Positions 8,531-62,405 of a stretch of 64,000 nt of DNA are shown one piece after another (within the stretch, counting starts at the first letter, position 1; every line of letters begins with the position of its first letter). Source of the DNA: Mya arenaria (Eukaryota; Mollusca; Bivalvia; Myida; Myidae). A model generated the notes under the pieces. It did no database searches and had not been told where the DNA came from. It was given only the letters and a program-made list of their open reading frames with translations. A program made the position numbers and the translations under genes. The stretch spans positions 8,907,117 through 8,971,116 of the forward strand of contig NC_069125.1 of NCBI RefSeq assembly GCF_026914265.1. The letters are read 5' to 3'.

Positions 8531-8864
8531 TCGGCTATATCTGTTTAAATTGTTAATCTGCGCAGATGCTATTGGTGAAGTTCAGAATTCACAATGTTAA
8601 ATCGCTTTTCACTTGTCTCAAACGTGACTAAGATATAGTCATATATCCCATGTAATAAGCAGTTCTATTTCGTTTCGAGAAGCCATCGGCACTTGCAAAA
8701 TAATGTTTCACACATATTTTTTTTATCTTATTTATTTTTTGCTCATATTTGCCATATACAAATATCATGCCAATGTACATTATAAAGAGAGACTTTGTTT
8801 AATAACTTGTTCAATCTGCAATATCCTAATAGCCTTTAACCGCATGAATACAGCGTAATACTAT

Positions 8865-12479: not shown

Positions 12480-12647
12480 TCACTTGACCAAAGCCATACA
12501 TACATGTTTTTTGCGAAGAACTGTGTTTATATCGTCGAGGCTTCGGATGAATGCATGAAACATTTTCCTTACACTGGCAGGTGCAACATCATAGACATCC
12601 AGAAGTTTTGTGAAGTTATTACTGTCCACTATAAACCTCTCTGACGA
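12480..12647 (-). CDS. Exon 20: C-terminus and stop codon
   Basis: Acceptor CATGTTTCAG|TCG, phase 0, 55 codons then TGA at 12482-12480. Contains F-T-K-L-L-D-V-Y-D and F-H-A-F-I-R-S-L-D-D. A GTATGT after K-K-H could act as a donor to a further exon, but the frame closes within 8 codons and a poly(A) signal follows, so a terminal exon is preferred. Confidence 0.65.
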   Translation of the reverse strand, partial: SSERFIVDSNNFTKLLDVYDVAPASVRKMFHAFIRSLDDINTVLRKKHVCMALVK

Positions 12648-15600
12648 CTGAAACATGTGTAAAGAACACTATTAGTTCAGGGCCATTTTGGTAACCTTCT
12701 AGCCGCACTACCTGTTATGGCCAGTGTATGTGTTTATAGCTATCAATAAATAATAAACAGCAGGTTGGATAAGGCTTTTTAAAGGATTTTCAGTATCCTA
12801 CTACCGAGTTCAAACGTTTAAACAACCGTTAACAGTAACATTAAACATTTAAATGTTGACAACTGTTGTTTATATGTAATATAAAACCCGCAAGTTTTAA
12901 TTGTATACAGTGGTGTAATGGATATGGTCACATACTGCAGACAGAGTACTGAAGCTCGATTTATGCTGTCAGTGGAAAAAAAAATCTAATATCTTTGTTA
13001 TCATTACACAAACATTTTTTTTAAACTTTTATATTTTATCATAATAAAACAGTCGTATATGTGTCTTAGTAAGTTGATATTAATTACGATGGTTTATGGG
13101 TGAATAAATCTACAGGGTAATATATCCTTGTTTAAGTGGGTTGTAAAAACAACAAAACGTAGGATAGGGGTAATCCTGAACCGAGGTGTGTGATTTAACA
13201 TATGCGGCAGAGGCTTCTAGCAGGAGCTACATACCAAAAATATAGGCTCTGCGAAATGCGCTTTTTGAAATGATAAGTTAAAACTTAATTTACCTCTGAC
13301 GGATTATAAGAGCAAATTTGTGGTGGCACCATACACATATTTTTGAAAATCTCTTCAACATGGTTTGGTGATACAATGTCAGCCACATCGTTGTCCTGAA
13401 AGTCAATTTTTGCAACATTCCGAATTTGGGCAATCAGTTCTCTTCGAGCTATCCAAGCTGATGAAGCCTGTTCAAGAGATTTAATCTCCTTCAAATGGAC
13501 CTCTCTAGGTCCATGTTCTACTTGTATGCTAACAGCCGCAGCATAGGCCTTCAATTGATCCTCGTTTTTAACGAGGTATTTCGTAGAATCACCATCGCCT
13601 ATAATAAAGATATTTTATCTAAAATACTAAAATAGTGCAATCGGGTACTTGGTAATATCGTCACTATTGAAGAGCTATGTGAAATACATGTTTTTGACAA
13701 ATGGGAAATACACATTTTACGAAATTGCCATTATACTGATTTTAAATATGAGTAAACCATCAGAACATCATCGTGTGATCAAAGTTTCATTATAAACATA
13801 GAAGGGGTGAAGCAGATATAAACAAACAAGAACCAAAACTCGGAACATCCATACATGTATGACTGATAACAAAGTGCATTCCTATACTTTCGCCCTATAA
13901 AGTAAAAACAACACATAGCTTAAACACTTACCTAATATGTTTCTAAATAAGCTTTCCCTCAGCTTTTGCACATTTTCAAATTGATTGAGGGAGAGTAATT
14001 CACTCTTTCCTTCCCCGCCTTTTGGTGTCTTTATCTTGAATTGAACGACCACCGGAAAATGGTATCTGTAGGCCAAAATGCAGTCTTTTTCCGAAAGTTT
14101 TTGTGCTGAAAATGACGGGCGGCCAATGCTTTTCATCTCAGTAACTTTAAAGTGTTCAATATAATTTTCAATAAATGTATGCAAGGTGTTCACTGTCAGA
14201 AAGCTCCCAGTGAACAATATTTCGGCAATGTCTTTACACCTCGTACAATCTGTATGTTGGAACAGTTTCTGTTTGGTCTCGTCGGTTGCCGTGAGTGCTT
14301 TGATCAATACACCAATATACTTGCTTTCTTTTTTTCTATGGTCCACCGAAGAGGTTGTAGTCGCCGTACTACTGTTAAACTGAACGACAATTTTGTCTTT
14401 TAATGCAGCTTTTATCTCGGCATCACCATGACAACAATCCTCAAAAATGAAAACCTTCTCAACCGTTCTTAGCTTTTGTATTTCATTGCATAATTCAACG
14501 TCTTGCATCAGTTCATTTTCACTCAGTTGGAAGAAGCCCTCATTGTCATCGATAGTTGATCCTGTAACACTCTTAAGAGGATTAATTGACTGGTCTCTGT
14601 TCTCTGCATTTTCTTGTTTCGTCTGGAAACCATGGTGACCCGAATACACCACTATAAGAGTTTTGAGGTTCTGCATGCTTATTTTTTTAAAGGCACTCTG
14701 AACTTTGCTCCACATCGTATTGTCTTCCTTGCCTAATTCATTTGGTGTAACAACTTCAATGCTTTCCTCCCTGTTGATTTTGAAATAAACATTATGTTGT
14801 CGGATTGTTAATGAATTTGTTTATTTGTTATTGTAGCAAGGGTTCATGATAAAACAACAGTATTGTTTAAAGTTCGACTTTAGTGAGGTCTTTTGGTCAG
14901 ATATCCAATTTATTAAAGAAGAATGAAAGTGTATGAATACAGGTGTTCCGAATAACAATATGAAATAATGTATGCTCTGGGACAAAACATTATAGAAGCT
15001 TATTTTAGCAAAGTACAAAGCGAGGAAGCATTATGATGATGTTCGAGTTATTGCCAAGGTTTAAGAGTTTGCATTATGACAACGACTGCGACAAACTAAA
15101 AGATCTACCTGATGCACATGACTGGAACACTTCTACTTGTGATAACCTCTTTCAGTCTTTGCACATCATTGGTGAAGGTTTTAGTTACTTTTTCATTTTC
15201 GTCATTTCCTGCTATCAAAATGGCTCCCCATTTATCCCCTGGAATGCAAAATATAAAGGATATTTCATTGTTGTTCAAAAACTCATTATTGCATTGGTCT
15301 CTTCAAAAGGGTACCAGTACTGGTTTCTACCACAGACACAGACTAGCTGTTACAGCTTAGGTGAATATATTACAATATTAACAGGATCTTGGTTAGATTT
15401 ACCAGTAACATGATTTTCTGGTTCTACAATAATGAATGGAATACTGATCCCAAACCGGAAAATAAATTCCCAAACTAATTCAAATAGCTTAATTAACAAA
15501 CAGAAACTTAAAAGGGCAATTTAAGTCGCTTACCAATAAATGGCTGCAGCTTCGTTTCACAAGTGTGACAAATAATTGGATTCAAGAAGGAATTTCTCAT

Positions 15601-18600
15601 ACAAGATGCGCACACCTTGATAGGGGTAAAACACATTTCGTCATGTTTCAGAAACTCGCTTTCAGCCGCTAAAGATAAAGCACAATGTATTATTCAAACC
15701 AAATGCATCAAACCCAACTTTGAAATCCATGGTGAATTAACACAAATTTGAGATAAACTTTCTTCTCCCTTGGACAAAAAAAGGTTTTATAGTTTAGTGA
15801 GATCCCACTCTAGGTCATGTATCCCTACAGGGTACTTCAAAAGGTTATGTTATATAGTCTTTAACATCCCAACCACACACAAAACAAACTCATTTTGTTG
15901 TAGCTTCATTATACATGATCGATTATATATAAAATTATATTAGTATTATATATCTGCCACAAATTTACATTTTTGAACTTTGAATTAGAAAAATGTCACA
16001 AGTACCTAAATATCTGCTTTCACGAAGGTCAAGCATTATTTCATTTGATTTATGGTCTAGAATTTACACCAACAACTTATTTATATAGACAAGGGAATAT
16101 ATCAAGTGACAGCAAAATGTTTTCTTAAGTCTAAATGTCTTATACAGAATAGTATATATGCCTCTTGCTAAAATCCAACTCTATAAGCAATTACACAAAC
16201 CATGTATCGCCCATCTTTTTCAGGTTGATATGTAGATAACTGTGAAATTATTTATATTTGTTGGCATGGACATTCGTGGTTTTCGAAAAAGGACAATTTA
16301 ATGAGTACTTTAATTTAAGTATGGGATATCATTAATTATATAACGTTTTAGAGCACAATCATTCTGAAGAACTTCACAAAATGAACCAAAAACTCACCAG
16401 CATGATTCACTACACACACTTCGCATTCCACCTCGGATTTTCTGGTCCACTTTTCTGCACCTACCTCGCGCATTAGCACCTTTAATTTTAAAGTAAGTAA
16501 ATAACATAGACATATGTTTAACTACAACATTAAGTTATGTGTAAAAGATATATTTTAAAGTACCATATATAGCCAATAACATAAAAGTATAGAATCTTTT
16601 GAAATGTACTTCAGCAAAAATTACACTTTGCTTTCTGACTTTGACATCTTGCATTCTGATATGCACATCTTGCTTTCTTACATGTACACCTTGCTTTATT
16701 GCCTCCTTTATTCGCTATTAAGGTGGCACACGCCTAATGGGCAAGTTCTATATATATTCAGGACCTGCTGCTTAATAATATTTAGCTTTAACCTTTTTGG
16801 AACATAATGCAAAACATCAAAATGTTTAACCGTCACGGTTAAAAAATAAGGGTTTGAAATTCCCAACCACCTATTTAAGCCGTGACTGCAAGTAAGAAAA
16901 TCTTCAAAGAAGCTCATATTTATCTGTAGAAAAGAAATGAATAACATTTTAATGAAAATACTGTTTACACTTCTGTAAAAATATGATAGCTAATGAATAA
17001 AAAGAAAAACAAAGATGCTTCTGAATCGATTCTAATCGCTATCATGAAACCCTCTAAAGATATGTAGTCCTGTGCTTTACAACATAGGCAATTTAAAGCA
17101 TTAACTTTGAAGAGTTTCAAGTGGAGGTTTTCATTAGGGGTGTGCTACCGTAAGGCATCTGTATTGCTAACTTCATGTAAGCTCCTTCGTGTGTATTGAC
17201 TGGTCCAAAGTAACATTCAACGTTTGCTTATGAATAATTGTGCATGCGTATGTTTTCAGAATAGTTTTGCGGTCAATTATCAATTTCTTCATTACTCTTA
17301 GATATGATCGTGTTTAATATTCTTATTTCAAGTTTAAACATTATATAATGTACAACGACTGTAGGAAAGTTATCATAACTTATGATAAGTCACTCTCGTT
17401 GGCAAGGTGTAGCGCGAGAGGTTTTAGGGGGAAACCGGACCACCCAGAGAAAACGCACTTGTCCGACTTGGTGACCACTAACCAAACTCACATGCGCACA
17501 TGCAAGGAATCGAACCAGGGTCGGTTAAGTGAGAAGCGAGTGCGCTAACAACTGCGCTTACCGGACATTTATGTTCTTATTTTAGATATCGTTTTACCCT
17601 AGCTAGCATTATAGCTTACTTCCTGACTAACTTTCTTTCTTGCTTAGTATTCCAATTTTCAGCATGAATGACAAATTTCTGAAAGCAATTGGAAATACTG
17701 CAAAGCATTTCCGTCTGGTTGAGTATAACTTCCCGAGCCTACGCCATATGGTGTTAAAAAACGAAGATGTTTTACATTTTGCTTCGTGGCTTGTTACAAA
17801 GCGCTTGCTTGCATGTGCTCTTCGGTTATACGGAGAATGTATAGTTTCATATTGATTTGTAACAGATTATAACACCTCGAGTATTAACTTTGAAAATAAA
17901 TTGAATGGAATATAGCATGAAACTAGATGACCAATATAACTTTTAACTTTGTACTGTTGCTCAGATGACGAAGTTAAGATACAATAAGGCAAGAAGTACA
18001 AGTCAGAAAGAAAGATGTAATTGTCAGAAAGCAAGATGTAAATATAAGAAGGCAAAATGTACAAGCAAGATGTTATTTTTTGCTTTAATGCCCTCCCATA
18101 AAATTAAAGCAGTTATGCAACATTTACCACTGTATGTTTTAACACAGGACATAAGAAAAACTGTGCGCAGAATTAAATCAATTGAATGAAGGGTAAAGAA
18201 ATAATTTGTGATCAACAAAACATGCACTAACACTTCAAAAGGACACAATATGCTCTAAAACTTTAGCCTAAGTTCATTAATCAATCAAGAGCCATAATGT
18301 GTACTTAGCACGGAATGGTATTATATACCATGAATGTAAGATGGTCGTCAATAATTGTGTGAAGTATTAAGTCTATTGAATGAAGGGTATAGAAATATTT
18401 AGTACAGATCCCAACTTGCCCTAAAAAAAATTTCACACTAAATGTGTCATAAAACTTTAACCTAAGTTTCTAAGTCAATCAAGGTCCATATTTTGTATTT
18501 AGGATAATATGTAACCTCATTGTGTGATGGTCCTGAACAACTGTGTGAAGTATTTAGTGAATGACATGAATGGTATTAGAGACATAAGTGAAAACGCAAA

Positions 18601-21600
18601 CATGCCCTTACACTTTAACCGGACGCCGACGCTGGGGCGAGTAGTAACGCCTCCTTATTCTTCGAATAGTCGAGCTAAAAACAACATGAACGAATAAACT
18701 TTTATGTGAAATAGCATGAAGAAACAAAATAGCTGAAACTGGATAGCTTTTAGTTGAATAAAAAAATGTAGGTAAATGGATTGATCATGTTCAACGTATT
18801 GAAATCCTTGAACCAATTGTCAAAAGGTGTCATCCGCTGGTAGTGTTCAGACTGCCAACCAAGTATGAGGTTCCTTGGCCCAGGGATTTATCAACTGCTT
18901 CCAAATATGAGATTCTTAGACCGTGTTGCACAACAAAAGTCAAAAGTAGTCCCGACCATCCTGCCTACGAAGTTTGAGGTCCCGGATACAAGCGTTATTC
19001 AGTTATTCATTAGAAACGGATTTTCAGCCAAAAGTCACCTCGACCTTGACCCTTGACCCACTGACCTCAAAATAAAAACGTTTATCTACTGATCATGACC
19101 AACCTACCTACTAAGCTCGAGTTCCCATTGGCACTAGCTGACAGTTGACAATATTATATTTATATAATGTCTTGAGCTGAACCAATGTCTCCACATGATC
19201 TAGGTACATGCCATTGCAATACGGGTGTAGTGTAACGAACTCTTAAAAACGTTGAAAACGAGATAATAAGTATCTTCCATGGCCGAGAGTGTTAGATAGG
19301 TTCATTCCGACCCGAGCGTAGGGTGTTTTGCGGAAACGAGGCTTATCGAATTTTCGCAAAACACCCTGCGCGAGGGTCGGATGAACCTATCTAACACGAG
19401 CGGCTATGGTAGATGCTTTTTCTCCCACCTCAGTTAAACAAAATTAAATAAAATTAAATAAAAATGTATTGTTTGATGTATGTCTTTTGCGCTTAGTGAA
19501 AATAATTGCGTATGGATAAGCGATATTTCGTGGTTGTCATTGATATGCGCGCAGTGATTCAGATTATGTAATAGTAAAATCTTTAAATAGTTCTAAGGAG
19601 AGTGAAGCATTATATATTGAAAGGTGTGTAAAAACTGTTTTATGGTGACATTTGAAGCGAGAAATAATTAAATAGCGTTCTAAATATTGCTACAAGACAA
19701 GATTTCCATGATGCTACAGACGACAGTCTTCAACAAGGGAGGTAATTACAATGTGGTGACCATTAAAAAGGAGTTCCATACGGGCATTTTATCTTCGCCC
19801 GTTGGAAAGATAATAATTTCTAGCATGGTTAAATTATTGGATCTACTTATCTGACGCGGGAGAAATGAGTTTCTATGCAATTATTTGAAATAAACAAGAG
19901 CTGTCGCAAAGACAGCGCGCTCGACTATTTCGCCGCGTTTCAGTGTAAGGATTGAAAAGATTTAGCGAAAAATGCATGGATCACTGTAAAATAAGATTTA
20001 AATGTAATACATGATGTATTTGCTGAGATATTAACATAAATGTTGTTAGATGCAAAATTTTAACCAGACTAATAATAAAGGCCCAATATTTTCAATATAC
20101 AGTTATCTTGGTTATTCAAGTAGGTTGGGTGGTTGAGTACCATTTTATAACGTGTCTATGCAATACATCAAGTAGTTGCATATGTAATTACCTATGTGTG
20201 CTTACATGCAAAACCTTAATCAGAATTTCTAAGTCGCATAATAAAGGGGCAAAAATATGCAAGATAGAGTTATCTTACTTGATTATTTAAGAAGGTTGAA
20301 TGGTTGGGAGCCTGTGTATTAAGTTGTTGTTGTTGTTGTTGTTGAGTTTATAAAGGTCTGCCCGCGCCCTATAATGGCTGCATTATGGCTTGACCCCGTC
20401 ACATCCCCAAGTGTGACTTAAACAGAATTTTGAATCCAAAGGGGGAGTTTTACCCCCATCGGTTGATGGGATATTCGCCAAAGGAGTAATTTTGTACCCA
20501 AAATGCCGCGAAACCTGCGATAAATGACATCTAGAGTGGCCCCACAGCTCTGAATATTGGATATGGTTTCATTGCTCTAGTCTTAACTACAGTTGTAATT
20601 TAGATATTGCGTTGTATCTTAAAAAAACATTTACGTGTAAGAATGGTATTTTTCGAGGATGGGCAAGACTCGCGATCAGTTCATTGACAAGAAAGTGTTG
20701 TGAGAACAGGACTTTTCGCCCACTACATGAATTTATATTTCTAATATATATATGAACTGACCACTTTGTTGTCGATGCCCAACTATTGCCACACTATTTA
20801 ATTATTGAAACTTCTTCAAGACCAGACAGTGCGTTAACATTACTTATTTTCCCTACATGTTTTTTAAGTGTTCATGTACATATACAAAGAGGGTTACTAT
20901 GGTTTATTTCTTTTTAAACAAACAATTAAAATAATAATAATATAAAGTTTTTTTGTTTTTTTGTTTTTGTTTTTTTGTTTTTTTTTAATGTGTATTAAGT
21001 TTCAATGCAATACATGATGCAATACATGATGTATTTGCTATTGACTTAAAAGTGGTTACATGCAAAACCTTAACCAGAATTTCTATGTCGAATAAAAAAG
21101 GGCCATTGTTTGAATTTTACTTCATTAATTAAGTAGGTTAGAAAGTTGGGAATACATATCTAAAGTTTCAATGCAATAAATGATGTATTTGCTGAGATAT
21201 TGACTTAAATGTGGTTACATGCAAAACCTTACCAGAATTTCTAAGTGGAATAATAAAGGGCAATTATTTTGCATTCAATGTAAACTAGAGTTATCTAACT
21301 TGGTTAATTAAGTACGTTGGATGGTTGAGTACCATTGTATAACGTGTTACTGCAATACATTAAGTAATAGCTGAGATATAAACATATGTGTGCTTTCATG
21401 CAAAACCTTAATCAGAATTTCTAAGTCAAATAATAGAGGCCCATTATTTGCATTAAAAACAAAGTAGAGATATTTAACTTGGTTAATTCAGAAGGTTGGA
21501 TGGTTGAGTACCGTTGTATAAAGTCTCAATGCAAAAACATCAATAGTTGTTGAGATATTAACCTATGTGTGCTTACATGCAAAACCTTAACCAGAATTTC

Positions 21601-24600
21601 ACAAGTCAAATAATAATGGCCAATCATTTGCATTAAATTCAAATAAGTGTTATCTAACTTCATTCATTTAGTAGGATAGATAGTTGGGAATACATATCCA
21701 AAGTTTCAATGCAATAATTGATGTACTTACTGAGATAATGACTTAAATGTGCTTAAATGCAATACCTTAACCAAACTGTGACGCCGACTCCGACGCTTGG
21801 GTGAGTAGTATAACTCTCCTTATTCTTCGAATAGTCGAGCTAAAAAATGTTGCATATAGTTTAGCATTTAGATTTGACCTCGTGACGTATTGTTTGACCC
21901 AACGTTACCCAGTTTTAAACTAAGACAAGAGGGCCAAGTTGGCCCTATATCGCTCAACTGAGTAAAACTTTGTGCTATTGAATTGTTGATAATTAGAGGG
22001 CAATAACAGGGATTTGACTTCTCTGATATATTATGCCAATTCACTTTCTCACCAAATTTTGTGATGATTGGACAAATGCTTAAAAAAGTTATTAATAGGA
22101 CAAGAGCATTTTAATGTTATTTCTATAATTAAAGCGCAATAACTCTCTAGTAAGTACAGCAATTTTTCTAATTATCAAACACGTTCATACACATTCTGAC
22201 CAAATTTGTCATAATTGGACAAAGGGTTCAAAAGTAATTGATCGGACTACATACTGGATGGTGCCTGTCTGCCGTTCCATTCACCTTAGGTGGAACTAGT
22301 ATACATCCAGTTTTTTAAACAGGCGTGTAAAAACATGACAAATATGTATTTGTTTAAAAAGATACCAAGGACAATAACTCTTACAATATTAAGGTTGGAT
22401 TCATATAACTCCTCACAAAAATATCACAATTTTCTGTGAATAAGTTAATAAAATTTGAAGTTGGTACCTTCAATGATTTTAAAACAATAAAATAACAATA
22501 AAAAAACCAGATGACCCATATTCAAACTTGACTTAAAAATTATCAAAACAACCTTTTTGACAAATATCCAGGATATTTGGGTTAAAAATGTTACCTCTAG
22601 AGTGTTAACAAGGTTTTTCTATATTTGTGCTCTGTGACCTAGTTTTTGATCCCAGATGACTCATATTCGAACTTGAGCTAGAAATCATCGAAAAAACCTC
22701 TCTGACAAATTTCCAGGATATTTGGGCTGAAAATGTCACCTCTAGAGTGTTTACAAGGTTTGTCCATATTTGGGCTCTGTGACCAAGTTTTTGACCCCAG
22801 ATGACCCATATTCGAGCTTGAACTAGAAATCATCGAAACAACCTTTCTGACAAATTTCCAGGATATTTGGACTGAAAAAGTAGCCTCTAGAATGTTAACA
22901 AGATTTTCCTATTTCCGGGTCATGTGGCCTAGTTTTTCATCCCAGATGAACCATATTCGAACTCCTCCGAGTAATTACTGGGACAAACATCCTGACCAAG
23001 TTTCGTGACAATTGATGCAAACATGTGACCACTAGAGTTTTAGCAAACTATGTGTGGACGGACGACGAACGACGGACTATGGTGAGCTAAAAGGTCAATT
23101 ATTCTAATAAAGTTTCATGAAATTTGACCAGGAATATTCCAGAATATAGCCCCCAGAGTATTCACAATGACTTTCTAAGATTTGACAAAGTTTACCCGTG
23201 TGAGGTAGTTTCGAACTGATCTAAAATTTCATCGAGGGAAATAGTCCGATTAAATTTCATGAACATTGGAGCGGATATATGTCCTCTGTTTGTTCGATCT
23301 AAGATTTGACCTAATGACCAAACATTTTGCATCACTTTAAATGTCTATAAACATTATACCAAGTACAATTTCATAAGAGACCTAGGTTCTGACATCACGT
23401 GACACAGATTTAACTGGTCAATGATTTCGACAAGAAAATATTCTGATTAAGTTTCATAAATATTGGATCAAATATATTCACCCTTTAGTATGTTTCAAAG
23501 AACTTTTTCTTAGATTTGACCTAGTGACCTATATTCTGACCCCATATGACCAACATATAAAATGCGATGAGATCAAGTGTTATATATCATTCAAATCTGT
23601 TTTTTTTATAATCTGACCAAATATTGCTATGATATGGTTCGGGATTATTTTTTGGACGTAATGTTTGATCACATGACACCCAGATTGAAATTTGCCCAAG
23701 AGTATATCAAAGGAAAATATCCGATAAAGTTGGACAACTATTTGACCAAATAAACTGATTGGTGTGTGTTCCAAAAAATAATTCTAAGATGTGAACTTGT
23801 GATCTAGTTTTAACCCCATGTGACCCATTTTTTGCGAGCAGTTGAGACATGATCAAGGGAAACTGACCAAGTAATCTGAACATTATCTATTAAATCCCTA
23901 CCAAAATATTATTCCGATAATATGGTTCCAGACAAAACACCTATTAGATTACATCTAGAGACCAATTTATCACATGTGACCCAATCTTAAATCTAAACAA
24001 CAGTTCATAAAGTCGGATGAATATTGAACCAAATACTGCTTTTTGTTTTTTAAAGATTATTCTAATATTTGACACAGTGACCAATTCTTTTAACCCATGT
24101 GAATATCTTTTACAAGCGGTCGAAATTTACCAAGGGAAAAGTTCTGGATAAGTGTTAACACCTTCTGACTTATTTCTTCCAATATGTGGTTTCATATAGA
24201 AAAGTCGGACGGACAAAAGAACGGAAGGAAGGTTTGACGGACGGGCGGACTGACGGACGGAAAGAAGGAAGATCGGACAACGCCAAAACAATATACTCCT
24301 CCCGAAACCTTCGGTTCGGCGGAAGATACAAAGCTGAATATATTTCTTACCTCCAGCTCTTTAAGCATATCAGAAATCTGGAATGTTTTTCCTAACGTAT
24401 GCTGTCTCGGGCTTTCAACACAACTGTCGGCTAAATCCAGTATGACTTTCCTAACCCGCTTATTTTTCCAAATCGCTTCCTTTAAAAAAACATCAATGAA
24501 CCATTTGGAAGCTGTAACGTATTTAATTTTTGCATTTAGAAACACAATACAATAGAAGAAATTGGATGTTATAAGATTTGGAAATTGTAATGTTTTTTAC

Positions 24601-27600
24601 AAACTGTCAACTATGATATCTAAGCAACAAGCGATTGTTTATCCGTAAAACATATGTCTCCCCGTCTTCCGCATGCCAACTGTACAAAAACTTTGACGAA
24701 GTTCTAAAGACATATTATATGAAAAAGATCTGTCGTAGGACAACGCGCTCGATTATACGCCATTTTTTTCCATTTTTTTAAAAGTGATCCTGAAATTGAC
24801 CCTGAGGGCGCTTAACGCAATCCAAAAAAGGTCTCCATAAACTCTTCCTTTATACCAATGTAGTCGTATAATGTCAAGCCTAGCTTAATTTATTCAGAAC
24901 CGACCGTTTTTTATTTTTAGTAACAATAAACATGACCCCAGGGGCCAAAAGAACAGTGCCATGAATGTTCACCATAAACACTTCCTTTATACCAAGTTTG
25001 GTTATAATAAGTAAATCCTGACCTTAGTAGTTCAGTACCAACCGTTTTTCTAATTCTAGCAACAGTTACCTTGACCTGAAACCTAGGGGTACCAAACGCA
25101 GCCTCATTTCTTCCTGTATACCAAGTTTGGTTGCAATATATCAACCCTATTTAAAGGCATTCAGTACCAACCGTCTTTTTATACTTGTCTTTACTGTGAC
25201 CTTGACCCCCAAGAGCCCCAAATGCAATCCTTTAAAGGTCTCCATATACTCTACTCATGTACCAAGTTTGGTCAAAACATGTCGATCCTTACTTAAGATA
25301 TTCAGTACCAACTTGTTTTCTATTTCTATGTGGGAAAGACGTTGACCTTGACTTCATGGACCCCAGACCCCATCCCATGAAAAGTCTCCATGAGGTCTAC
25401 CTTTATAACATTTTGGTCACAATATGTCCACCCTAACTAAAGTAATCAATCGTTTTTCTATTGTTAGTATCAGTGACATGACCTTGACCATTGGGGTCCC
25501 AACCCCAATCCACTGAAAAGTATCCATTAATTATTCCTATATACCTAGTTTGGTCAAATTATGACAAATCTTATTAAAGTTAAAAGTTGAAAAAACGATA
25601 CCATAGGTGATTTTGACGCAGCCCTCCCGAAAAGGTTTCACTTGGTGATCTTTTTTTATAAAAGCGTGCCTTTCAAAAGCAATAAAAAGGTCAAATAAAA
25701 AAGAAATAAAAATTCAATAGGCTCATAATTTGTATGTAGCTTTAATATGGAGTAATGTAGCCTAATTATGTGATGGCTACTGTGAAAAGTATGAAGGCCG
25801 TTAAATGAACTATACTTATCTGAGTTAAAAACTCCAAATGCCGAAGCACTTTAATCACACTTTTTAAGTCAATCAACGGCCATAATTTGCCTTCAGTATA
25901 ATATGGAGTAATGTTATTTAAATATATGATGGCCGTAATCAACTATATTGTCCTTAAACTTTAACCGGACATAATGTGCCCTAAAACTGTAACCTATGTT
26001 TCTAAGTCAATCAGAGGCCATAATTTGTATTCAGGATGATAATATTATGGTGTTATGTACCCTAATTGTAATCGACAACGATTGTATTAAGCATAAAGTC
26101 AATTGAATAAAGTACACAGAAGTTTTTAATGAAAATCCCAACTTGCCCTTGACCCGTACACAACTTGCCATTAAACTTTAACCTACGTTTCTAAGTTAAC
26201 CAGGGCAACGACACATCTGTATCCATCCATTTGGGGGCAAAAAAGCAGTTTGAGTCATAACGGCATGCGCATATGATAACAATTGTGCATTTGAGCTTAC
26301 CTTGACAATTATTACACTCAGAGTGTTGGCCCTTTAGGTACATGTGTGTATTGACACTAGCAACATATGTACGAAGTTTCAACTGGATATCTTCAATGTG
26401 TTTTACTTAGGTTATGGCAAAATTGAAGATGTATTTTTAACAATGACACCGACGCCGACACCAAGGTTATCTTTTTAAAATGTAATGTATCAAGGATTAA
26501 AGTGTCGTTGGAGACATATTGTAAAAACCGGTCATGGATTATCATTTATATTAAATATAATGTGCATGAGTTGCACAATTACCAGAAAGGAAACAGTGAG
26601 ACCTTGACAATAGAGAGGATGCAAAACACTACACATACATGTTTGTTTGCGTGTACATGTTGCTGATGGCCTTACAATTTGTTTCTCGTTCTACTTGCAA
26701 GGCAAAGACTCTTAAACTCTCGTAGAAAAAAACGCCGTTTTCGTGATGGTGTAAACTTCACTACCGTTTACCTACAGATACCTGTCCTCGATTATAACTT
26801 CTCGCTTTTAACTTCTACAAAGTACACTTACCTGGATGACGATCACATTCACACATATCCGTAGAAGAAGCATTTCGCAACCCCTCCAATAACTCAAACC
26901 TTCGTTTTGAAAACCCCCCAGATAAACTTATGAAGTGGCAATGCAGATCTGTGTACATAAATTAGTTTACCTGAATATTTTCCTTCAAAGACCATTTTGA
27001 CATAGTCTGTAGGGTACAGTTTGCAAACCTTTTAACTGGACTGATTCCAGTAAGTAGTTCTCTAATCACTGAAATACAATTAGATTTCTTCATCAATGAA
27101 TAAAAACTTCATTTTTTTACGGTCATAATATAGTCTTTGCTTCAAATATTTTAAAATAATATTTTCCACAATGACAAGCCTTGTGCATTAATAATTGTGC
27201 TGAAACATCCTGATTTGACACATTATTCATGGGCATGCGATACGGTTAGTCGCAAAATGTCCAAACTAGCTAAAATAAGTTTGGCCCTTGACCGTGACCC
27301 TAAGGAGCCCAAACGCGGTCCCATGAAAGGTCTCCATAAACGTTTCCTATATACCATGTTTGGTCACAATATGACAATCATATCTACATTTATTGAGTAC
27401 CCATCGTTTTAATTTTTAGTACCAGTACCCTTTACCTAAACCCAAGGGTCTCAAACGCAATCACATCAAAGGTCTCCATAAACACTTCCAATATAAAGTT
27501 TGATTACAATATGCAAACACTTACTTAAGATATTCAGTACCAACTGCTTTTCTATTTTTAGTTATTATGAGACTGACCTTTAGCCTAGGGCCCCAAAACG

Positions 27601-30600
27601 CAACCCAATGAATGGTTACCATAAGCTTTTTTCTATATACTAAGTTTTTTACAATAAGTAAACCCTAACTAAAATTATTCAGAACCAACCGTTCTTCTAT
27701 TTCAGTAAGAGTGACGTTGACCTTGACCCTAGGGGCAAAAACGCAATTCCATGAAAGGTCTTCATAAACCCCTCCTTTACACCAAGTTTAGTCGCAATAT
27801 GTAAACCCTAACTAAAGACATTCAGTACCAACCGTTTGTCTATTTTAAGTTACAGTGACCTTCACCTTGACCATATGGCCGCAAAGCGCAATTACAGCAA
27901 AGGTATCCATAATCTCTTTCTTTATACCAAGTTTGGTCGCAATATGTCAACCTTAACTAAATTAATCAGTACTAACCGTTTTGTTTTAACAGTAACATTG
28001 ACCTTGATCCCAGGGACCAGGCGATTCCATCAAAGATCTCCATAAATTCTTCATATATATATACCAAGCTAAGTGACAATATGTAAATCCTAACTAAAGT
28101 TATCCGTTGTCATATTTGTAATCCCGCCCACCCGAACAACGACGTACGTCATTCTTATAACCAGGTCTCAGTTGGTAAAAAATGCGGCTCATGGGCATAC
28201 TTTATTTTGTCATTAACACATTTTTTTACTTATTTCAATGCACATAAATCAAAATCACGTTTCAGTGCACAAGTCATTTAACAACAATGTCATAATTAAA
28301 ATAATCGCCTATCAAGAGTGCAAAACAAGTGACTCATTGAAATATCAGTACATTCAACCCTAATTTTAACATTTATTTGTTGCTTAGTTGTTTTAAGTTG
28401 TTTGTAAACTTACAAATAGATCTCTTTTTGTGGTTAATATCAAACGCAAATGTAAGCTTTAAAAGATAAGCCAGTTAGTGATGATTAAAATCAAGCAAAT
28501 AATCACATGTATCGAGAAGTATCATACCAATTCCAAAGTTGTGGTAGTCATGAAACTTTGTCAAACCCTCGAAATGGGTTGTTGGAAAGTAGCCAACACT
28601 CCCAGAAATAGGAAATAGCGTGTCCAAGCTTGTATCGTTGGGCTCCTTCATTTCTCTTGCTAAACCAAAATCGATCAACCTTGCATTGTTACTCAAATCC
28701 AGCACGATGTTTAGGGACTTTATGTCCATATGCAAGACATCATTCCTGTAAAATCATGATAGCTTTACAAAGCTAATATATTTTGAAAAAACATTCAATA
28801 TGCGGCTTATAAGTAGAGAACAAGTTTAAAAGTGCAACATTTCATGCAAGGCATTTTTGCATGAATTTATTTTAAACTTCTTGCATAACACAATCCAGAT
28901 AGCCAAATCTTTCTAATTGCCATCTCTTGTTTCAACCTACCTGTTTGAAACAGATGGATCTAATATTTGCCTCCATATGTGAACAGTATATGTAAAAGAA
29001 AATTTCAGCGAAACATATAAAACGTATACAAAACTGGAACACCAAACATATATTTATATAGTACAAATGCATCGAAGGACATACTATAAACATATACGAG
29101 TGCTTTGATTACATACATGCACAGAATATATATAAATACCACCCGTTAGTAAAGAGAAATACTTTTTGCATCAAAATAGTAAATAAAGAAAAAAGAAAGA
29201 AAAAAAGTAAAAGGATTTTGTAACTATAGAGTGCAACTCTTAGAAAGCAAACCAAAAATCTAGATTTCAGTTTGCATTATATTAAGGTTACAATAACTTT
29301 AGTTATTAAATTAGTATCTATAGCTGATTGCAAAGAAAGAAAGCTAGACGAAAGAGAAATTCTAGATCTCAATTTGCATCCACGAACCCAATGTGTTATA
29401 GGATATGAACTAAAGGGAAAAGATATATGAAGATTTTGAGTTATGTCCAAAGAGTGCACATCGAATGGAAATTTATGCCAAATTATCAAAAAATACATCA
29501 TTCGAATATATGCATAAACAATCTTGGCAATAGATCACTAATACAGACAAACCAGTATTATATGCGCAAATATGCTGCTATTGGCATTTTCGACACCCTA
29601 ATGCTAACATATTTTACATACTGCATGAGCCAGAAAAAGACAACTAGACAGAGCCGTGCATAGTCCACCAGCAACAACACGAATTATCACGATGCATTGT
29701 TCAAGGGTTGTACATCTCAGAAATGTCATGTCTTCAATGATTCCATATTTTTATACAAATACTGCCATATTTTATTTTGAAGATCGCTTAATTAGGGGCA
29801 ATAGCACAGACGATGAACAACAAAGTTGTCGTTAATGCAGTGACACTTTGAGCAACGATGTTGAAAAGTTCCCCATTATATGACATACTCTTTTATATAA
29901 TTCAGCGATATATTTGTCTTTCTCGTAATTTTCCATATTAATGAAGGTTGTTTTTCATTAAACACGTATGGGAGTAACTATTCTAACTGCGGTTGGCTAA
30001 AGAGTCTCGTCACACGTTCACGCTTCTCAAACAAAGTTACGCACGAGTAAAAAATATTCTTTTCCAGACGTGCTTATTAGGAAATGTTTCTTGTCTGATA
30101 TAAATGTCCAGATATTCAAGCAATCTATACTTTTGTCTGTAGTAATTGGGCTTAAACAGACAGAAAGCTTTCATTTACATGCAAACCTTCCCATGCAGTT
30201 TGGCAATATTGATAACTGAAAAAAATAAAGAGCATAAATAAACAGGACGATGAAAAGTTACTGCAAGATAGTGAATGTCAATTCGCGTCTGTTGCACTTT
30301 AATGAGACTGTTAGCATTATTGAACATTTAAGTCAATGAAATGTATGAGATATTTTCAAGGAATCAAGTTTCAAAATTAAACTTTTATATAAAAGAGCAT
30401 GAATAAAAAAACTATTTTAGCTCATGATCATTCGACCTTGACCTTTGAACCACAGATATCAAAATCAATAGGGCTCAATTTAAAGTTATTACCAACATTC
30501 CTACCAAGTTTGAGGTCACTGGTACCAAGCGTTCTTCATGTTTTGATTTAAGGCTCAAGGTCTATACATTGACGATAGACCCACTGACATCAATCTCAAT

Positions 30601-33600
30601 ATATAATTGGTCCTGGTCATGTCCAATGTGAACTATGTTTGAGGTCCTTGGGGACCAGCTTTTTTCAAATATTTATCAAATATTCAGCTTAATGTCTCGA
30701 CGACCTTCATATTTGACCTATTGATCTCAAAATAGTTAGTTATTATAGGCTGCTCGTGACAAACCAGTCCATCAATTTTGAAGTAAAATTTATCAAGCGT
30801 CCTTTAGTTATTGATCGGAAAAAGATTTTCACTTAATATCACCACGAATTCCTCCTACTCACCTGAAAATCAATACTGTCATCTGCCTGCGGGGTCGTAG
30901 TGACGCTTTTTCCATTTATGTTTATAAATCAAAAACTTTTACTTCAAACTTGAACGAATCGAAAAATCAGTTGGCAGTCAAATATGTAGTACAATACTGA
31001 TATATCCCCCTCCAAATGAATCATATTATTTCCTTCACATTTTGAAGAAACATATTTATTGAACAAATGACATAATGTAAAGAAATACTGCAGTCAGAGT
31101 TATAGTTCCTGTGTACTGCACCCCCCCCCCCTCCTCGAAATGACTTATTTGAGTATCAAGACACTACCTATGGGGCTTTTGGTGTCGTGCTCCGTTCAAA
31201 AAAAGAGAATAAAATGAACAAAATTACCCCAACAAGATTTATGGGTCCTGTGCACTGCATATATCCTTAATATAGTTAAAATGTATGTGAAGTTTTAAAC
31301 CAAGACCGAAGAGACTTTAGGAGTTATTCATCGGCTTGAAAATGAACAAATGGCATTTACTGAAAACATATCGCGGACACTTTTTCTTCCTTTGCACAGC
31401 ACGTCTCCTCAAAAATTATGGGTTTTATTTGTATATAAAGTTTGGAGTAAATACCTCAATACTTTTCGGGCTGTCCTCTGGACAAAAATGCTTAGGAATG
31501 CATATAGCCATGCAAGCATTTTCTTGTTATCGTTCCATACTTATTCTTTTATTTGTTCAATGTTACCACGACCTTGGTGCCATACTTATCTCAAAATCAA
31601 TAGAGTCATCTGCTGATCATGACCAAACCGCTCCACCATGTTCAAGAACTTATTGTCTAGTAAGCAGGCCGACCAAGGTTGGTCGGCCGACATGTGCAAG
31701 CACAATATAACCACGCTCATTTAAAAGGTTATTTACACGTGGTGACATAGACGAAATCGGCATACACTATTTACTCAAGCTTTGGAAAACAAAAGGGCTT
31801 AGTCAATGAATTTGGCGTAGCACTATATTCATTTAGGGGCGTTCTTAATATGAGTATAAACAAATAAGAAAAAAAATAGTTGTGTTACCTGAAGTCCTTT
31901 ACAGGGGAATGCAAGTAGCTTATTGCAGAAGCCACTTGGTAGATGATCTTTAATCTCGTTTTTTGCGTCATTCTAACAGGGTTTGTTGCATTTATTGAAA
32001 TGGACTTTGTGTCTTCTTCGATAGCCTTCAAGAGATCTCCACCCTCGAAATATGGTGACACAAAAGAGAAGTATCTGTAAAATAAGTTCTAAACCGTATG
32101 ATTATAAAAATACAAATACTATGGGAAATAATTTAATTAAACGCAACAATCTATCAGCATGTTTAAAGTTTAATTTTCATTCCGTATGTATTTGATAACA
32201 GTTTTAATCGTACATACGCATTTAAAAGATATAAAAAAATTCTGTCCAATGGGATGGTAGTATTTATTAAATTTGGCGTACATTTATTAAAGCAAATCAG
32301 CAGTAGATGATAAGTTAAATCATGTCAATCGGTAGATCTAAACAGAGGCTTGTTCAAATAACAAAATATAATCTCGAACATCACAACAGTGAAAGGTAAT
32401 TGTATAAACAAAAACAAATGGTTTTTTGACTGAATCGCATTGAACGCTTTTATTTTGGTCATTATATACTTACACCCTTAGAAGTATATTTTGGAGAGAG
32501 TAAATGATGTAATGAAGAAAAAAATTAGATATAGTTTAGAAAAAAACTATAATGCAATTACGCGGTTTTGTCCCTGCTGTAACATGTTGTCTTTAGCATA
32601 ACGCAGGTGATGCTAAACATGTACTTTCAAAGTTGGTTTCATAAACAATCAAAACAAAAAATGGTCTTTTATTACAAATTAAGCTATCAAAATAGTTTGA
32701 GCCTGATAAAACTGCCTGACATATTTGATTTGTTTTTTCTATTTCATTCTAGTTAAAGTCAGGACACAAAATGATGCTAAAACATGGATATGATTTTGTT
32801 GTCGCAATAACAAGGGGAATTTAGGATCTACGAGTATTTTATAGCAAATAAGCAAAATAAATCAACAATTTTCTCTTTGCTTTTCTAAACATCTGTACCA
32901 ACTAAAAATATATATCCTACACTAGTTATTAAACAGAAAAAGTGACAGCTACGAAATGGACCTTCAGGCTAAGAAGTACAGGTTACGCAAATAGTTTTTG
33001 AGGTATCCATTTATTAAACGAGGAGTGTCAAAAATACTGTACACAAAATTCCCGCAACTTCTAAAACTGTTCATATTGCAACAAAAAGTAAGGTTTTTGC
33101 GCTGTGCATACTATATATTAACTGAGTTTAATTCAAGAATTTACATTTGCCTCTGATACGAAAACTGTGACAAAAACAATATTCAAGGGGTGCAATCTTG
33201 TAAAAATGGACGATAACTTATAGAGTATAACCAGGACGGACGTTAGGCGTATACCGGTATGGTTCACCTTTGAGCTTGGCTTAGTTAGTTCAAAGTTTTA
33301 ATGGAATTTAATAGAGATGGCCACATGTGAAAATGCGTATGCCAATAAACAATGTGATCACAATTTTTAAAGATTGTATAAGAAGTGTTCAAGTAAAGGG
33401 CGCGAACAAATTGAATTTGATGAAGTTCAAGACTGTAACCAATTCTGTTTAAAATTGGATAAAACTGATTCAGTTACTTAGAAAAACGGACAGACATTCT
33501 TAAATTAGTCGAGCTATTATACCGACGAGTCACTGACAATTACTTGCAGAACAAAAAGACTAACAAAAACGTACCTATATCTCACAGTCTGATCTGTCAG

Positions 33601-36600
33601 CAAATCTTCATGGTATGCAAGTAATGGCACAATCCCAAAATGGAGTATCCTTGCTGCAAGCTTCTCCTGTAATAAAAACAATTGATACGTGCTGAATGCC
33701 ATTGACATTTACTTTGTGCCCATATCAATTGTTAATCTTTTTGCATGTAGGTAAAGGTGGCTGCCTCTCCCTCAAGAGGCCAAGGGTTCTATACCGCCTT
33801 TTGAATAAGGCATCTATAAATGGACATCAGTACTTGGTAACAAATTTGTTTGAGATTCCTAACCGCTAACAGTCAGACGTGCAGTAAATTTGATATACAC
33901 AATAAACAATCATCATTATGATTCACTCGGACATAAAAGGAGTTTAAAATAGTAAAATGGAAACGCTAGGAACAATCCTGTAGCCGAACTTTCAACTATG
34001 AACTTTTTCAAAGATATATGAATAACTACAGAATCAAGCCAAGTAGTCGAAAGTTTAAACATGAACGTCGTTTAATGGTACAGGGTAAACGCCAAAGACA
34101 TAGAACACAAAAACAAACAATCACAAACCAGAAACATGGAACAACAGCACAGAACTCCAAAACAGCATAGTACATATATACTATATAGAAAACTAGGGGT
34201 GTTTATCAAGGATTGTTAGGACAGCCTGTCAGAAAATCAAGAAACGAGAGACATCCAATGCAACATACACAAAAAAATAAGTACTTAAGTACAGTTCCTA
34301 AAAACATGTTGGGGTTACTGATTTGAAAACAAAACTTACATTTGTGATAGATCTCATCTTATCCAGATCATTATTATTTATGTGCAATTCCTTAATGACC
34401 ACTTTAATGTTAAAACCTGGAACACTTGTTTCGGCTGAAATCAATTGAAAACACAAAACGATTATTTTCAAAATACAGACATATAGAAGAAAGAGATAAA
34501 TAGCAGTGGTGTGTCGAGTTAAACAGACATATGATATAATATTCAATGAATGCAGCCTCTAGAAAGTTCATACGGAGCATTTTACGTACAAATTAACGTT
34601 TTAAATGTACATTTTTAATATCCGAGACTAACCTAATTTTCATAGGTATGCACCATTTTCATCAAGAGTTTGTAGAAAACGTGTCTACTTAAGTATTATA
34701 ATAATAGGCAATGTGAAATGGAGCGAAGTTTCATAAAGCTTGGAAAGAAGTGTGGATATCTACAATGGACGATTCATGTTTGACGACAGCTAGTCATAAT
34801 AGCTCATCATGAGACAATTTGCTCATTAAGTGTTTGTATTGAAAAAGTAACGAAAGAAAACTCACTTGCAAATACTTTAGCACCATTTGTTTTTGCCAAT
34901 TCTTTTGCTTTGCCGACTTCCTTGATGTTTGCTATTTGAGATTGGTTGAGACTAATAAGACGTCCATCAAACAAATCTCGTTTAATAACCATCAACAAAT
35001 CTTTCTTAAGGCCTTCTAACGATGAAGTTAAATCATTTGTTGATGGCATATATATAGTTTCTCCTAATTGTAGCTCATTTGTGGTTTTATTAGCTGGGGT
35101 TCCGATGGGTTGTGGTTCAGGGTCTAACAAAACCTCTGTAAGTCATTCAATAATGTATTCAGAAGGTAATATATGAGTATGTTATAACAAGAGCACCGCT
35201 ATTTGAGGTCAATGCACTTCCTTTTCCGGAGCATATGTCGACACCCATTCTTGTCAAGAGTTATGGGACTTGAACATTTGCGTATTGTCAAAGTAAACAT
35301 GAATAACAAGTTTGATGTATATACTAATATATTCGAACTTTATTTAGCTACGTCAAACGTTTTGCACAATATTGACGACGACAACACCGAGGTTAAATTT
35401 TTTGCTTCGTCAAATAAACTATGAACACTGTTCTATTCTTCAGTCTGTTGACAGCCCAGTCAATTTTAATAATAAGCATAATATTTACCGATGCCAAATC
35501 CAACTTCTTTTCTTAGTTGTTCCCAGTCAATAGTAACAGCAGTGCATCTCTTCATTTCCAGAAAAAGGACCCTAAATGTTGCCTTATTTGCATTTCCCCG
35601 TTTCCAATGTTTCAACATATTGTTAATCTGCTCTATAAGAGAATATCCGAAGTCCAGTTTAATTCGTTCAACGGATGGTTTTGTTACGCCCAAAACGTCG
35701 GCGAGTTGTTCCCAGCCATTGCCGATGGCAGAAGCAATGCTGACTAACTCACGGTCACTAGGTTCTTTGTCTAGCTTTTCAAGAATACAAGCAGATCTTG
35801 AACCTGAACACAATAACAAGGCAATGAATCAATGCTAGCATGTGATCTGCATAACTTAATTTGTACTTAAAGGCCAGGTGTTTTTCAGTAAAATGCCGTC
35901 AGCAGAAAATTAAGCTTATCTGCTTGTTTTTTGAGATAATCTCAAAGTGGTGTTGTATTGTTAGACAACTGCAGTACTTTTATTAAATCTAAAAAAACTG
36001 AAAATCATCATGTAGGTATATTTAAATCTGGTAGCAGACAGCTTATACTGACAGATAGATTTCTGGACCATGATGGAAGTTTACATTTTCAAAAAGGAAG
36101 ACTAATATACTGAATGACTTCGATAAGTCTAATACACCACTGTTTTACAAGTGTTAAATACACCAGAAGAGTGGCCACTTATCTGATTCTCTCTGTTTGA
36201 CAGTTCTTCCGCGGCCTTTTAAACAAAAGCGAATGATATAAACTTAAACCAATATAATCTGTAGCACTGCATGCATAAGCTAGTTGTCAAAGCTCGTCTG
36301 ACTATCATTTAAACCAAGTTTCATTAACTTCAAAATCATTGCCTCTTCAGTGGTAACGAATAAATCTTGTAATGATAAAAGATGGTTAGACGACAAAAGA
36401 CTTTTATCTTTACAAGTGTTACCATCAAATATGCATATATTTCTTTAGATTAAATCATAAGTGTATACATGCATGTCAACATTCATTTTATCGCATATGT
36501 TTATCATGATTAATGAGAATTGAACATCAACGCGCATTATCACACAAGGAGCACTGATTATTAAATACACAAATATTTCCAAACCTGGTGACCACAAATT

Positions 36601-39600: not shown

Positions 39601-42600
39601 GCGGCCGGCGGCGGCGCTGTCAGCCAATATTTATGCGAAAAGCTAAACATTGTAAAGACAATTACTTAATTATTCATTTTATAATCATTATAACCCACAA
39701 AACTAAAGTACTATACTACGTCCCAGCCAGCAAAAAATATGGGACCCATATGGGTCCCACATGGGTAACCATATGGGTCCCATGTGGGCTACCCATCTGG
39801 GCCCCACATGGGTTTTGCAACAGGGCTCCATGTGGGTCCCATAAGGGCAACCCATATGGGCTGTATGTGGGACCCATATGGGCCCCACATGGGTTTTGGA
39901 ACTGGGCTCGATTTAGGACCCACATGGGTTTTTGAACTGGGCTCGATTTAGGACCCATATGGGCCCCACATAAGTTTTTGAACAGGGCTTGATATGGGAC
40001 CATATGGGTCTCACATGGTATTTGTGGGCTCTATATGCCCTACCTAAGATATTAAATTGGGGTAAACCGTTACTTTTGTTATTACATGTTATAATATATT
40101 GATTCCAATTACCTAAAATATTTGATCTTGAGTGTTCACCTATTGCATTACTATCCTTTCACTGGTTATCTAGACAAACAGCTATGTTGAGAAGTACAAA
40201 TGACATAATGTCAACATAATATTTAATTACACAACAAAGATAGCAATAATCGTATTAAGTTTATTAACATGAAAACATTAGAAATGTAAAACAAGATGTA
40301 CACTAAAAAAGTCAACAAAAATTACATACTGACAATGTTAAGATTTTGCGTAATACTGGCAATATAAAAGTGGCACACAAGAAAAATGTGACTGAAATTA
40401 TGACACATTTTTTTTCAGTTTTGTTTGACAATACCAAGCTAAAAAGATCTAGTACATTTATATGGTAATTTGATTAATAACTTAATAATAAGTGAAAACT
40501 TTGTTTTATTGATTGTATCTGTCAGTTAAAGCTGTCAAACTGAAAAAGCGTGTCAAAAATTACATGTAAAAAACACACTTTTTAAAGGCTTTAACGACAT
40601 TCGGAGCTCCTCGGCCATTTTATCAAAAACAACCTCTGATGTATTTGGACGGTTTACATACTCAAAATGCGGTATGTTTAAATCCGCTGCAAGTAGATCA
40701 CGTAGTAAATTTTTTAGCAGTTAAACTTTATGACTTAACTCTTGGGAATCTTAATCATGTTTGCAATAATACACTTCACTGGCAATCAATTTAAACTTAG
40801 ATCAATAAATACAATTCTAAAACCCTACATTTAATTAAAGATATAATTAAGAAATTTACAAACTACTTCAACGGATGTACCGGCATACATCTGTGGTTGT
40901 TTTCGATAAAAATGGCCGAGGAGCTCCAAATGCTTTAACGAAAGACGCACAAGTCTAATAAACAGAGCATGGAGTGCATCTACACATTCAAGTATAACAA
41001 TATTGCTTAGACATAAAGCAGTGTTTCAAACCAGAAATGAAATAACAGTTTTAAGTTAATTGGCACATAGGATTCAATCACAAAAATCATACATGTAAAA
41101 TAAAAAAGAATTTAAAAAAAAGAAAACAATTAAACAAAAACCAGAGCTATTGACACAATTAATGCACCTTGTAATACTGACTAGTGAACTGACATGACTA
41201 AATGTTAAAACATATATATATATCCTTATTTCCTCCATGTTTGTTGAGTTACATTACAAAATACATATGAAACAAAAGTAGAGCAACAGTATATAAGTTA
41301 TAACAAATATTTACATAATACACATCAAGAAGGATTAATTAATATATACACACTCAATCCATAGGTTAAAAACATGTATCTACCATGTACAAATCTGGGA
41401 TCACTGTTAACACCAGGGAAATAAATGGGGTTGATATAATTAGTCAGCTGGCCCCAATTTCTCGAAAGTTCTTAAGCGTAACACCCTTAAGTAGCTTATT
41501 TCATTCAGCCAAATTTCTTACTTCATCTTAAAATAAGTTTATTGTGAGTGTATCAAAGTTTAAAATGGTGTTCCCAGGATAAGAAAATATTATAGTAAAA
41601 CAAAAACCGACATCATTCCGAGATATTATGGTAATTATTCAATGCCAACAGGTTTCCCTTATTAAAAGTCTTCTTTAGAACAATCATCCAAATGTGAACT
41701 AAACATATTTGTCTTGTTGATGGGTCTCTTACTTGTCATAGACAGTTTGTCTTATGTTTATACAAAAAAGTAAAAGCAACATGGATTTGCCTATAAATAT
41801 AGATAAGAAATGCTCTTCTTGCAACCCTTAACGATATGAAAATTTAGGGAAAAAGTTGGAGATATCTCATTATTACATTGTGATACATTTTGCATACAAA
41901 CTACATAACATGTCACATGACATTGTTGTGTTTATGATAAAACAATAGAAGCATACATATTGTACATAATCAATTTGAAAAATATTCTGACAATTTTTGT
42001 TGGTTTAATTCTGAGTCGTAAATCCGAATTTTTATAGTAAATAAGTCAACATTCTACTCAGGAAGCATCGGGGTGACCCTTGCTCGGTCTTTGCGGCCAA
42101 CCTCACGACCTCGAGACTCGGAAAGCCACTACTATATGGCCCCCTCCATTTCCTTGCGGTTCTAAAGTGTGTTGCTGGGTTCAATTGTAGACATCCTGTA
42201 AATAGTGTTAGTGGATAGATGAATATCTGAGACAGTTATTTCATCAAAGTGATTATCAAATGTTTAGTAATAAATAAGCAGCATTTTATCGGCAACTATA
42301 TATGGTAATTTTAGCTAGGCAGATAAATTTAGATAGGTATCTTAAAAAGTTTGTCATTTTTTAACACTAATACTCAGTTATATTTTTTTTTATTCATTGA
42401 TGTATATGCACAGCATAGGTAGTTTAATTTAGCACACCTTAATATATACAACAACAAAACCACCTATTGAAACAGATGTTTATCAAGTGGAGTCTGTCCA
42501 GTATTGGCGGGCCAGATTTGTTGTCAACACCGTCTTCATTACCCGGGGAAACAGTGTCCACTGTGTCACTCCCACCATATTCTGCCAAGTATTTTACCTT

Positions 42601-62245: not shown

Positions 62246-62405
62246 CCTAGCACCACTCAGAATGCGCCCCTTTCCTCCAACTCCCCACTAAGGGAGGAGA
62301 GGAACGTTCATCAATGACAGGGACCGTGCCGCTATGACCCAGCGGCGGACCCTGCCCGCTTCGCGCTCAGAAAGGGGCGCTCTGTCTCGTCCTCGTGGTG
62401 TTAGG
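62246..62405. mobile_element. 160-bp MITE at the start of tandem copy C
   Basis: Same as 59345-59504; the flanking sequence to the left differs from that of copy B. Confidence 0.65.

Follow-up and report, generated by a model that had tools for sequence, protein, structure and literature searches.

A candidate gene of the bivalve Mya arenaria predicted to join a death domain, a Pelle/IRAK-type kinase, a cysteine-rich segment and a C14 peptidase

Background

In the Toll, TNF and PIDDosome pathways it is adaptors that normally link death domains to kinases and caspases, and the IRAK and Pelle proteins carry a death domain before a kinase of the RLK/Pelle type. In this study we analysed a 64,000-nucleotide stretch of the Mya arenaria genome (contig NC_069125.1, forward-strand positions 8,907,117 to 8,971,116; hereafter the window, in which all coordinates are numbered), whose minus strand holds, between 35803 and 12480, what we judge on balance to be a single animal gene with fifteen or more exons, encoding a death domain, a kinase of the Pelle/IRAK/RIPK type, a cysteine-rich segment, a caspase-like (C14) peptidase and a C-terminal region. 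The gene shares with IRAK and Pelle the death domain ahead of an RLK/Pelle-type kinase, but its death domain is nearest to those of CRADD, PIDD and FADD, and a peptidase half follows the kinase. RIPK1 and RIPK2, which act in cell-death signalling, also combine a kinase and a death-fold domain, and the RIPK1 death domain matches that of the product (E=0.005); in RIPK1, however, the death domain is C-terminal, and neither protein has a peptidase.

The descriptions of published systems given here follow the portions of the cited papers that we consulted. The nearest precedent found in them is in the sponge Amphimedon, where proteins with N-terminal death-like domains have a variable C-terminus, which can be either a caspase or a protein kinase (PMC8195603). 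For those proteins, however, kinase and caspase are given as alternatives and not in combination, and TRADD-N lies in between (PMC8195603); TRADD-N was not matched by Pfam at E<=5 on the product described here. Hybrid immune genes are well documented in marine invertebrates. Fusions with TRADD-N and with death-like domains are numerous in oysters, amphioxus and sponges (PMC8195603). Amphioxus has hybrid genes of the death-caspase, TNFR-caspase and LRR-caspase kinds, some of them, of the first two kinds, backed by complementary DNA (PMC2575513). Its death-domain caspases and 'shortcut' genes resemble the present gene in joining a death fold to a peptidase in one chain, with the adaptor replaced, but for the TNFR- and LRR-caspases QACxG is reported and, unlike here, the consulted text places no kinase in the chain (PMC2575513).

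Novel Gene 3 of sea anemones, in which a protein kinase and a death domain are found with TIR, Roc/COR and SH3 modules (PMC5094078), is likewise a marine invertebrate protein that unites a kinase, a death domain and a further signalling module; it differs in that no peptidase is named in the consulted portions of that paper. In bacterial EACC1 and EACC2 systems caspase and protein kinase domains may share one chain, but there the kinase comes after the caspase, whereas here it precedes the peptidase (PMC8195603); the EACC domain was not found in the product. Type I metacaspases have a cysteine-rich segment ahead of a p20/p10-like fold (PMC6426788). Two surveys of bivalve caspases give CARD, DED, DD, DSRM, FN3 and PB1 as partner domains (PMC7836458, PMC10967218), and the word kinase is absent from the consulted text of the first and occurs once in that of the second, in the reference list. 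No description of a death domain, a kinase and a peptidase in one chain was found in the consulted portions of the open-licence PMC literature, and annotations already made may contain this domain order without comment.

Gene structure and coding evidence

On the minus strand, from 35803 to 12480, fifteen exons join into 1050 stop-free codons followed by a TGA at 12480. All 14 introns are of the GT..AG type, and the joined frame has one stop, the terminal one. The phases agree at every junction, although some of the splice sites were picked with the reading frame in view, and part of this agreement, most of all at exon 8, is a product of that choice. The fifteen exons of the earlier note, with their agreeing splice sites and phases, were all found where it had placed them and in a single stop-free frame. 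Its junction 24351/16479, between exons 9 and 10, was exact to the base, whereas the coordinates given for a second junction, 15238/14770, are the starts of exons 12 and 13, the actual junction being 15109/14770.

Exon 1 (35489 to 35803) is entered in phase 1 and codes for the death domain (product residues 19-80); it starts at an AG acceptor and is not the first exon of the gene. The kinase begins in exon 2 (34866 to 35135; phase 1 in and out), which holds a linker and the start of the N-lobe, and continues through exon 3 (34340 to 34434), with the beta3 lysine (VVIKEL, K209), exon 4 (33575 to 33666), which covers the helix C region inside the Pkinase match, and exon 5 (31889 to 32074), with the hinge and helices D and E. 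The catalytic loop HMDIKSLN (residue 324) and the DFG motif (residue 344) lie in exon 6 (28528 to 28745). Exon 7 (26971 to 27068) codes for the helix F region (VIRELLTGISPV) and was absent from two of the three chainings able to test it, exon 8 (26832 to 26892; 61 bases) belongs to the C-lobe, and exon 9 (24351 to 24511) ends the C-lobe in phase 0. Exon 8 is the least certain of the fifteen, with a poor acceptor that scored -4.5 with generic matrices and was selected for its fit in phase; the donor of exon 9 is good (9.8).

In the second half, exon 10 (16398 to 16479) provides the first cysteine pair of a putative zinc-binding segment (CEVC, residues 517-520), and exon 11 (15534 to 15668) the remainder (H534, C538, C545, C548, C559 and C562). 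The peptidase fold starts in exon 12 (15109 to 15238) with KWGAILIAGND, the PF00656 match beginning at residue 589, and continues in exon 13 (13932 to 14770), which contains YSGHHG (residue 656) and EDCCHG (residue 724) and, by eye, a p10-like part after them. Exon 14 (13294 to 13598) codes for the C-terminal region, and exon 15 (12480 to 12647) is the final exon, with the stop codon.

The coding character of the region was assessed with a chaining program that used generic splice matrices and codon statistics, the gene's own introns serving as the non-coding background. Chains scored 277.7 when all exons were used for training, 233.1 with the codons of exons 1-9 only and 250.5 with the codons of exons 10-15 only, compared with 6.4-23.5 for 20 third-order Markov sequences derived from the introns and 25.2 for the opposite (plus) strand of this region. 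The 28 kb of real sequence between 36 and 64 kb of the window gave 59.0 (plus strand) and 85.5 (minus strand), above the Markov controls, which are therefore too mild, but the gene still scores well higher. Codons of exons 1-9 recovered all six exons of the held-out peptidase half (with exact matches for exons 10-14 and an overlap for exon 15), and codons of exons 10-15 recovered seven of the nine exons of the kinase half (four exactly, three in overlap), with exons 7 and 8 missed. As the codon statistics of each half recover all or most exons of the other, both halves are coding and similar in codon usage. The best chain from all exons missed exon 7 and included six decoys, and the held-out chains took in five and two decoys, six of these seven in intron 9; because the best chains included decoys, chaining is no test of the junction between exons 9 and 10. 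One exon ranking was circular and was excluded from the evidence.

Death domain and kinase

Death, Pkinase and Peptidase_C14 were all found above their curated Pfam cut-offs, in that order, on the one spliced product, as the earlier note had proposed, and each of these cut-offs is also passed by a single exon frame, that of exon 1, exon 6 and exon 13 respectively. For the death domain (PF00531) the product scored 29.5 bits against a cut-off of 22.6 (E=8.4e-7), and the stop-to-stop frame of exon 1 scored 34.8 bits (E=1.9e-8). The nearest PDB sequence is CRADD (E=1.8e-5), with PIDD, then FADD, and there were no IRAK or MyD88 chains among 29 PDB sequences at E<=1. The established work of CRADD, PIDD and FADD is the recruitment of caspases. 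The predicted death domain is thus in place, although it is not of the IRAK/MyD88 type, since CRADD, PIDD and FADD are nearest. An IRAK orthologue with a tail was considered and rejected on these same affinities.

The kinase matched Pkinase with 66.9 bits against a cut-off of 31.7 over residues 205-410, beginning at profile position 26. The exon 6 frame alone gave E=3e-9, above cut-off, and that of exon 5 matched PK_Tyr_Ser-Thr at E=5.9e-4, below cut-off. Among the best 60 of 1623 PDB matches, the plant receptor-like kinases SOBIR1 and BRI1 come first, followed by IRAK4, the first animal kinase (E about 8e-10), and then RIPK2 (E=1.2e-8). This ranking bears out the Pelle/IRAK-like character claimed previously, and we assign the kinase, from its sequence, to the RLK/Pelle/IRAK-RIPK kind. 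The beta3 lysine (VVIKEL), the HxD..K..N loop (HMDIKSLN) and the DFG motif (DFGLA) are all retained. The residue at the gatekeeper position, which is a tyrosine in IRAK, is by eye an apparent serine here.

Cysteine-rich segment and peptidase

The segment before the peptidase has four pairs of cysteine or histidine residues (C517/C520, H534/C538, C545/C548 and C559/C562). The cysteine pattern behind the zinc finger of the earlier note is therefore present, but no Pfam family matched the segment above cut-off, either on the exon frames or on the product. Double zinc ribbon models gave E=0.093 and 0.28 on the frames, and DZR gave E=2.6 on the product, all below cut-off, and zf-LSD1 had no Pfam match at E<=5 on the product. 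We regard the segment as putatively zinc-binding.

The peptidase matched Peptidase_C14 (PF00656) on the product with 27.9 bits against a cut-off of 21.4 (E=2.2e-6, profile positions 19-206 of 233), and on the exon 13 frame alone at E=4.8e-6. In the motifs YSGHHG and EDCCHG the histidine and the cysteine are kept in the expected places, while the QACxG of animal caspases is missing. Metacaspases and orthocaspases (C14B) have motifs of the YSGHxG and D-x-C-H type. The type I metacaspases and prokaryotic orthocaspases resemble the product both in these motifs and in the cysteine-rich segment before a p20/p10-like fold, but differ in that here zf-LSD1 is not matched and a death domain and a kinase stand in front. 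The other profile matches, which are weak, are to the prokaryotic caspase-like NCBIfam model 'caspase, EACC1-associated type' (E=1.3e-4; 21.6 bits against a cut-off of 140) and the PADLOC model 'caspase' (E=2e-4); they indicate likeness, but they make no choice between C14B and C14A because both libraries are prokaryotic by design.

Compared with PDB sequences, the whole peptidase half gave nothing at E<=10, and the p20 part gave three insignificant matches at E<=10, none of them named caspase. One PDB chain matched there, 3bij, which we take to be orthocaspase-like, had E=0.57 and is not significant. The protease of the earlier note is accordingly upheld as a C14 peptidase by its Pfam score, whereas a canonical caspase is not supported, as there is no QACxG and no caspase-named chain at E<=10 in two PDB sequence comparisons. 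By its Pfam assignment we read the domain as a C14 peptidase other than a canonical caspase, the motifs leaning weakly towards the metacaspase/orthocaspase side. An ordinary bivalve caspase was among the candidates tried and was rejected for want of QACxG. Residues 788-1050 include p10-like stretches by eye and had no Pfam match at E<=5; a TarS_C1 match on the product (E=0.077) is below cut-off.

One gene or two

The gene model reads as real and unusual, and as a lineage-specific hybrid. A single transcript is likely, and we hold it fairly probable that the fifteen exons form one gene, an estimate that is the remainder after the chances given to the two contrary explanations below (two genes, and an assembly error or pseudogene). 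A number of observations weigh against one working protein of this kind, and they are given here together with the alternatives.

In the first alternative, which we regard as somewhat unlikely, the strand carries two neighbouring genes: exons 1-9 would code for a death-domain kinase, whose unseen last exon would lie in the 7.9 kb gap that follows, and a finger-peptidase gene would start at an in-frame ATG at 16473 in exon 10. Intron 9 is, at 7,871 bases, the longest of the 14, and exon 10 has a weak acceptor (5.0, the lowest of 15 by site scoring; generic matrices give it 2.6, more than they give exons 7, 8 and 9), the ATG lying six bases into the exon. A terminal-exon candidate in intron 9, 22776-22678, has a score reached by only two of 200 controls, but it sits inside a 145-base tandem array. 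The gap also holds 10 polyadenylation-like hexamers, a count that stands without a chance control. Against two genes, the best initial-exon candidate in the gap scores only 5.0, leaving aside the exon 10 ATG itself (17.1). Exon 10 moreover opens with an AG acceptor whose phase suits the end of exon 9, and its first residues appear to prolong the last kinase helix smoothly. Exon 10 itself belongs with the peptidase half, because the finger is divided between exons 10 and 11.

A second alternative, which overlaps with the favoured reading so that the chances of the two are not exclusive, keeps one gene but has the kinase, the peptidase or both as pseudo-enzymes that serve in assembly alone. We consider this unlikely. 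At the position of the glycine loop the kinase has GAKVFA (residue 189, exon 2) and not GxGxxG, and the APE position reads PTT (exon 6), both placed by eye, and the Pkinase match starts well into the profile; as neither motif has its normal form, kinase activity is uncertain. The peptidase match, for its part, is weak and exceeds its cut-off by little. On the other side stand the retained lysine, HxD, asparagine and DFG of the kinase and the histidine and cysteine of the peptidase, and we take both domains as putative enzymes.

Three further results count against one working protein. A stricter held-out run (exact sites, small site matrices, top 60 candidates) recovered only three of six and three of nine exons. 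A structure model of the exon 13 fragment was useless, with a mean predicted local distance difference test score (pLDDT) of 33.4. Translated scans with close-relative reach found no relative, either in viral contigs (peptidase and kinase queries) or in prokaryotic contigs (finger-peptidase query); these negatives say little, because of that reach and because neither collection contains animal genomes.

That pieces of separate genes were joined into a non-working whole by an assembly error, or in a pseudogene, is very improbable, since although there is one sequence only, the window has no N, 1050 codons run without a frame-breaking change, phases agree in 14 of 14 introns and coding statistics transfer between the halves.

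The 5' end and other features of the window

The gene model is incomplete at its 5' end: the acceptor that opens exon 1 leaves a codon short of one base, and coding sequence upstream is missing. The best candidate for a first exon, with a strong coding-like score, ends at 43300 on the minus strand (43300 to 43579, with an ATG at 43579 or 43432) and leaves in phase 1, as exon 1 requires; it could open either this gene or a different one. It scores 24.4 when read from the ATG at 43579, whereas 100 controls did not exceed 11.3 and 35.8-50 kb of the plus strand reached 7.3, and from the ATG at 43432 it scores 22.2; it had no Pfam match at E<=0.1. For ten individual open frames upstream and downstream of the gene, Pfam returned nothing at E<=0.1.

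Of 39 repeat pairs at least 200 bases long in the window (blastn, E<=1e-20), not one overlaps an exon. A tblastn search of the window with the product found, besides its own exons, six matches at E=4.4 to 8.9 and no paralogous copy. Diverged repeats at 24797-25625, 27286-28103 and 47463-47952 lie in the introns and upstream and are mostly 67-72% alike between places; the array at 27286-28103 has a period of 145. Short repeats at 39737-40030 and 43944-43975 are rich in the palindromic word CCATATGG.

Elsewhere in the window, two full-length U3 small nucleolar RNA genes are found on the minus strand at 62252-62472 and 59351-59571 (157.3 and 148.2 bits, cut-off 34). They are part of a tandem duplication (59345-61094 and 62246-63998, 98.9% identical) that may extend beyond the window end. 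A block of about 950 bases at 2642-3580 is 92% like 59842-60791 and 62743-63695, in both copies of the U3 duplication, and is a dispersed repeat or another duplicated piece. On the minus strand at 7602-8534, two adjoining open frames resemble by eye the end of a reverse transcriptase of the non-long terminal repeat (non-LTR) type; they had no Pfam match at E<=0.1.

Proposed function and implications

A single polypeptide with this domain order would most likely act as a death or immune switch that works without adaptors. In the mechanism that we propose, the death domain would enter an oligomeric death-domain assembly and so gather copies of the protein. The closeness of the copies would let the kinases phosphorylate one another, or neighbouring proteins, in trans, and the attached peptidases, brought together in the same way, could be activated by proximity or by self-cleavage. 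Beyond the order of the domains and the residues present, each of these steps is modelled on the action of IRAK, of RIPK and of death-domain caspases. Receptor sensing, which had also been ascribed to the polypeptide, finds nothing in the analysis that points to it.

To our knowledge, animals have caspases and paracaspases and no metacaspases. A more far-reaching possibility, which we regard as doubtful, is that a single animal protein carries a death domain of the caspase-recruiting type, a Pelle-type kinase, a finger and a peptidase of metacaspase or orthocaspase character. In that case such a protease, which would probably be specific for basic residues, must have been retained or gained by an animal lineage and wired directly into death-domain and kinase signalling. 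If the protease is indeed of the metacaspase kind, this would bear on the usual view of animals as being without metacaspases. A natural single chain with all three domains would add a kinase-protease pair to the known 'shortcut' genes of invertebrates, and would provide a ready means of testing if proximity by itself is enough to link phosphorylation with proteolysis.

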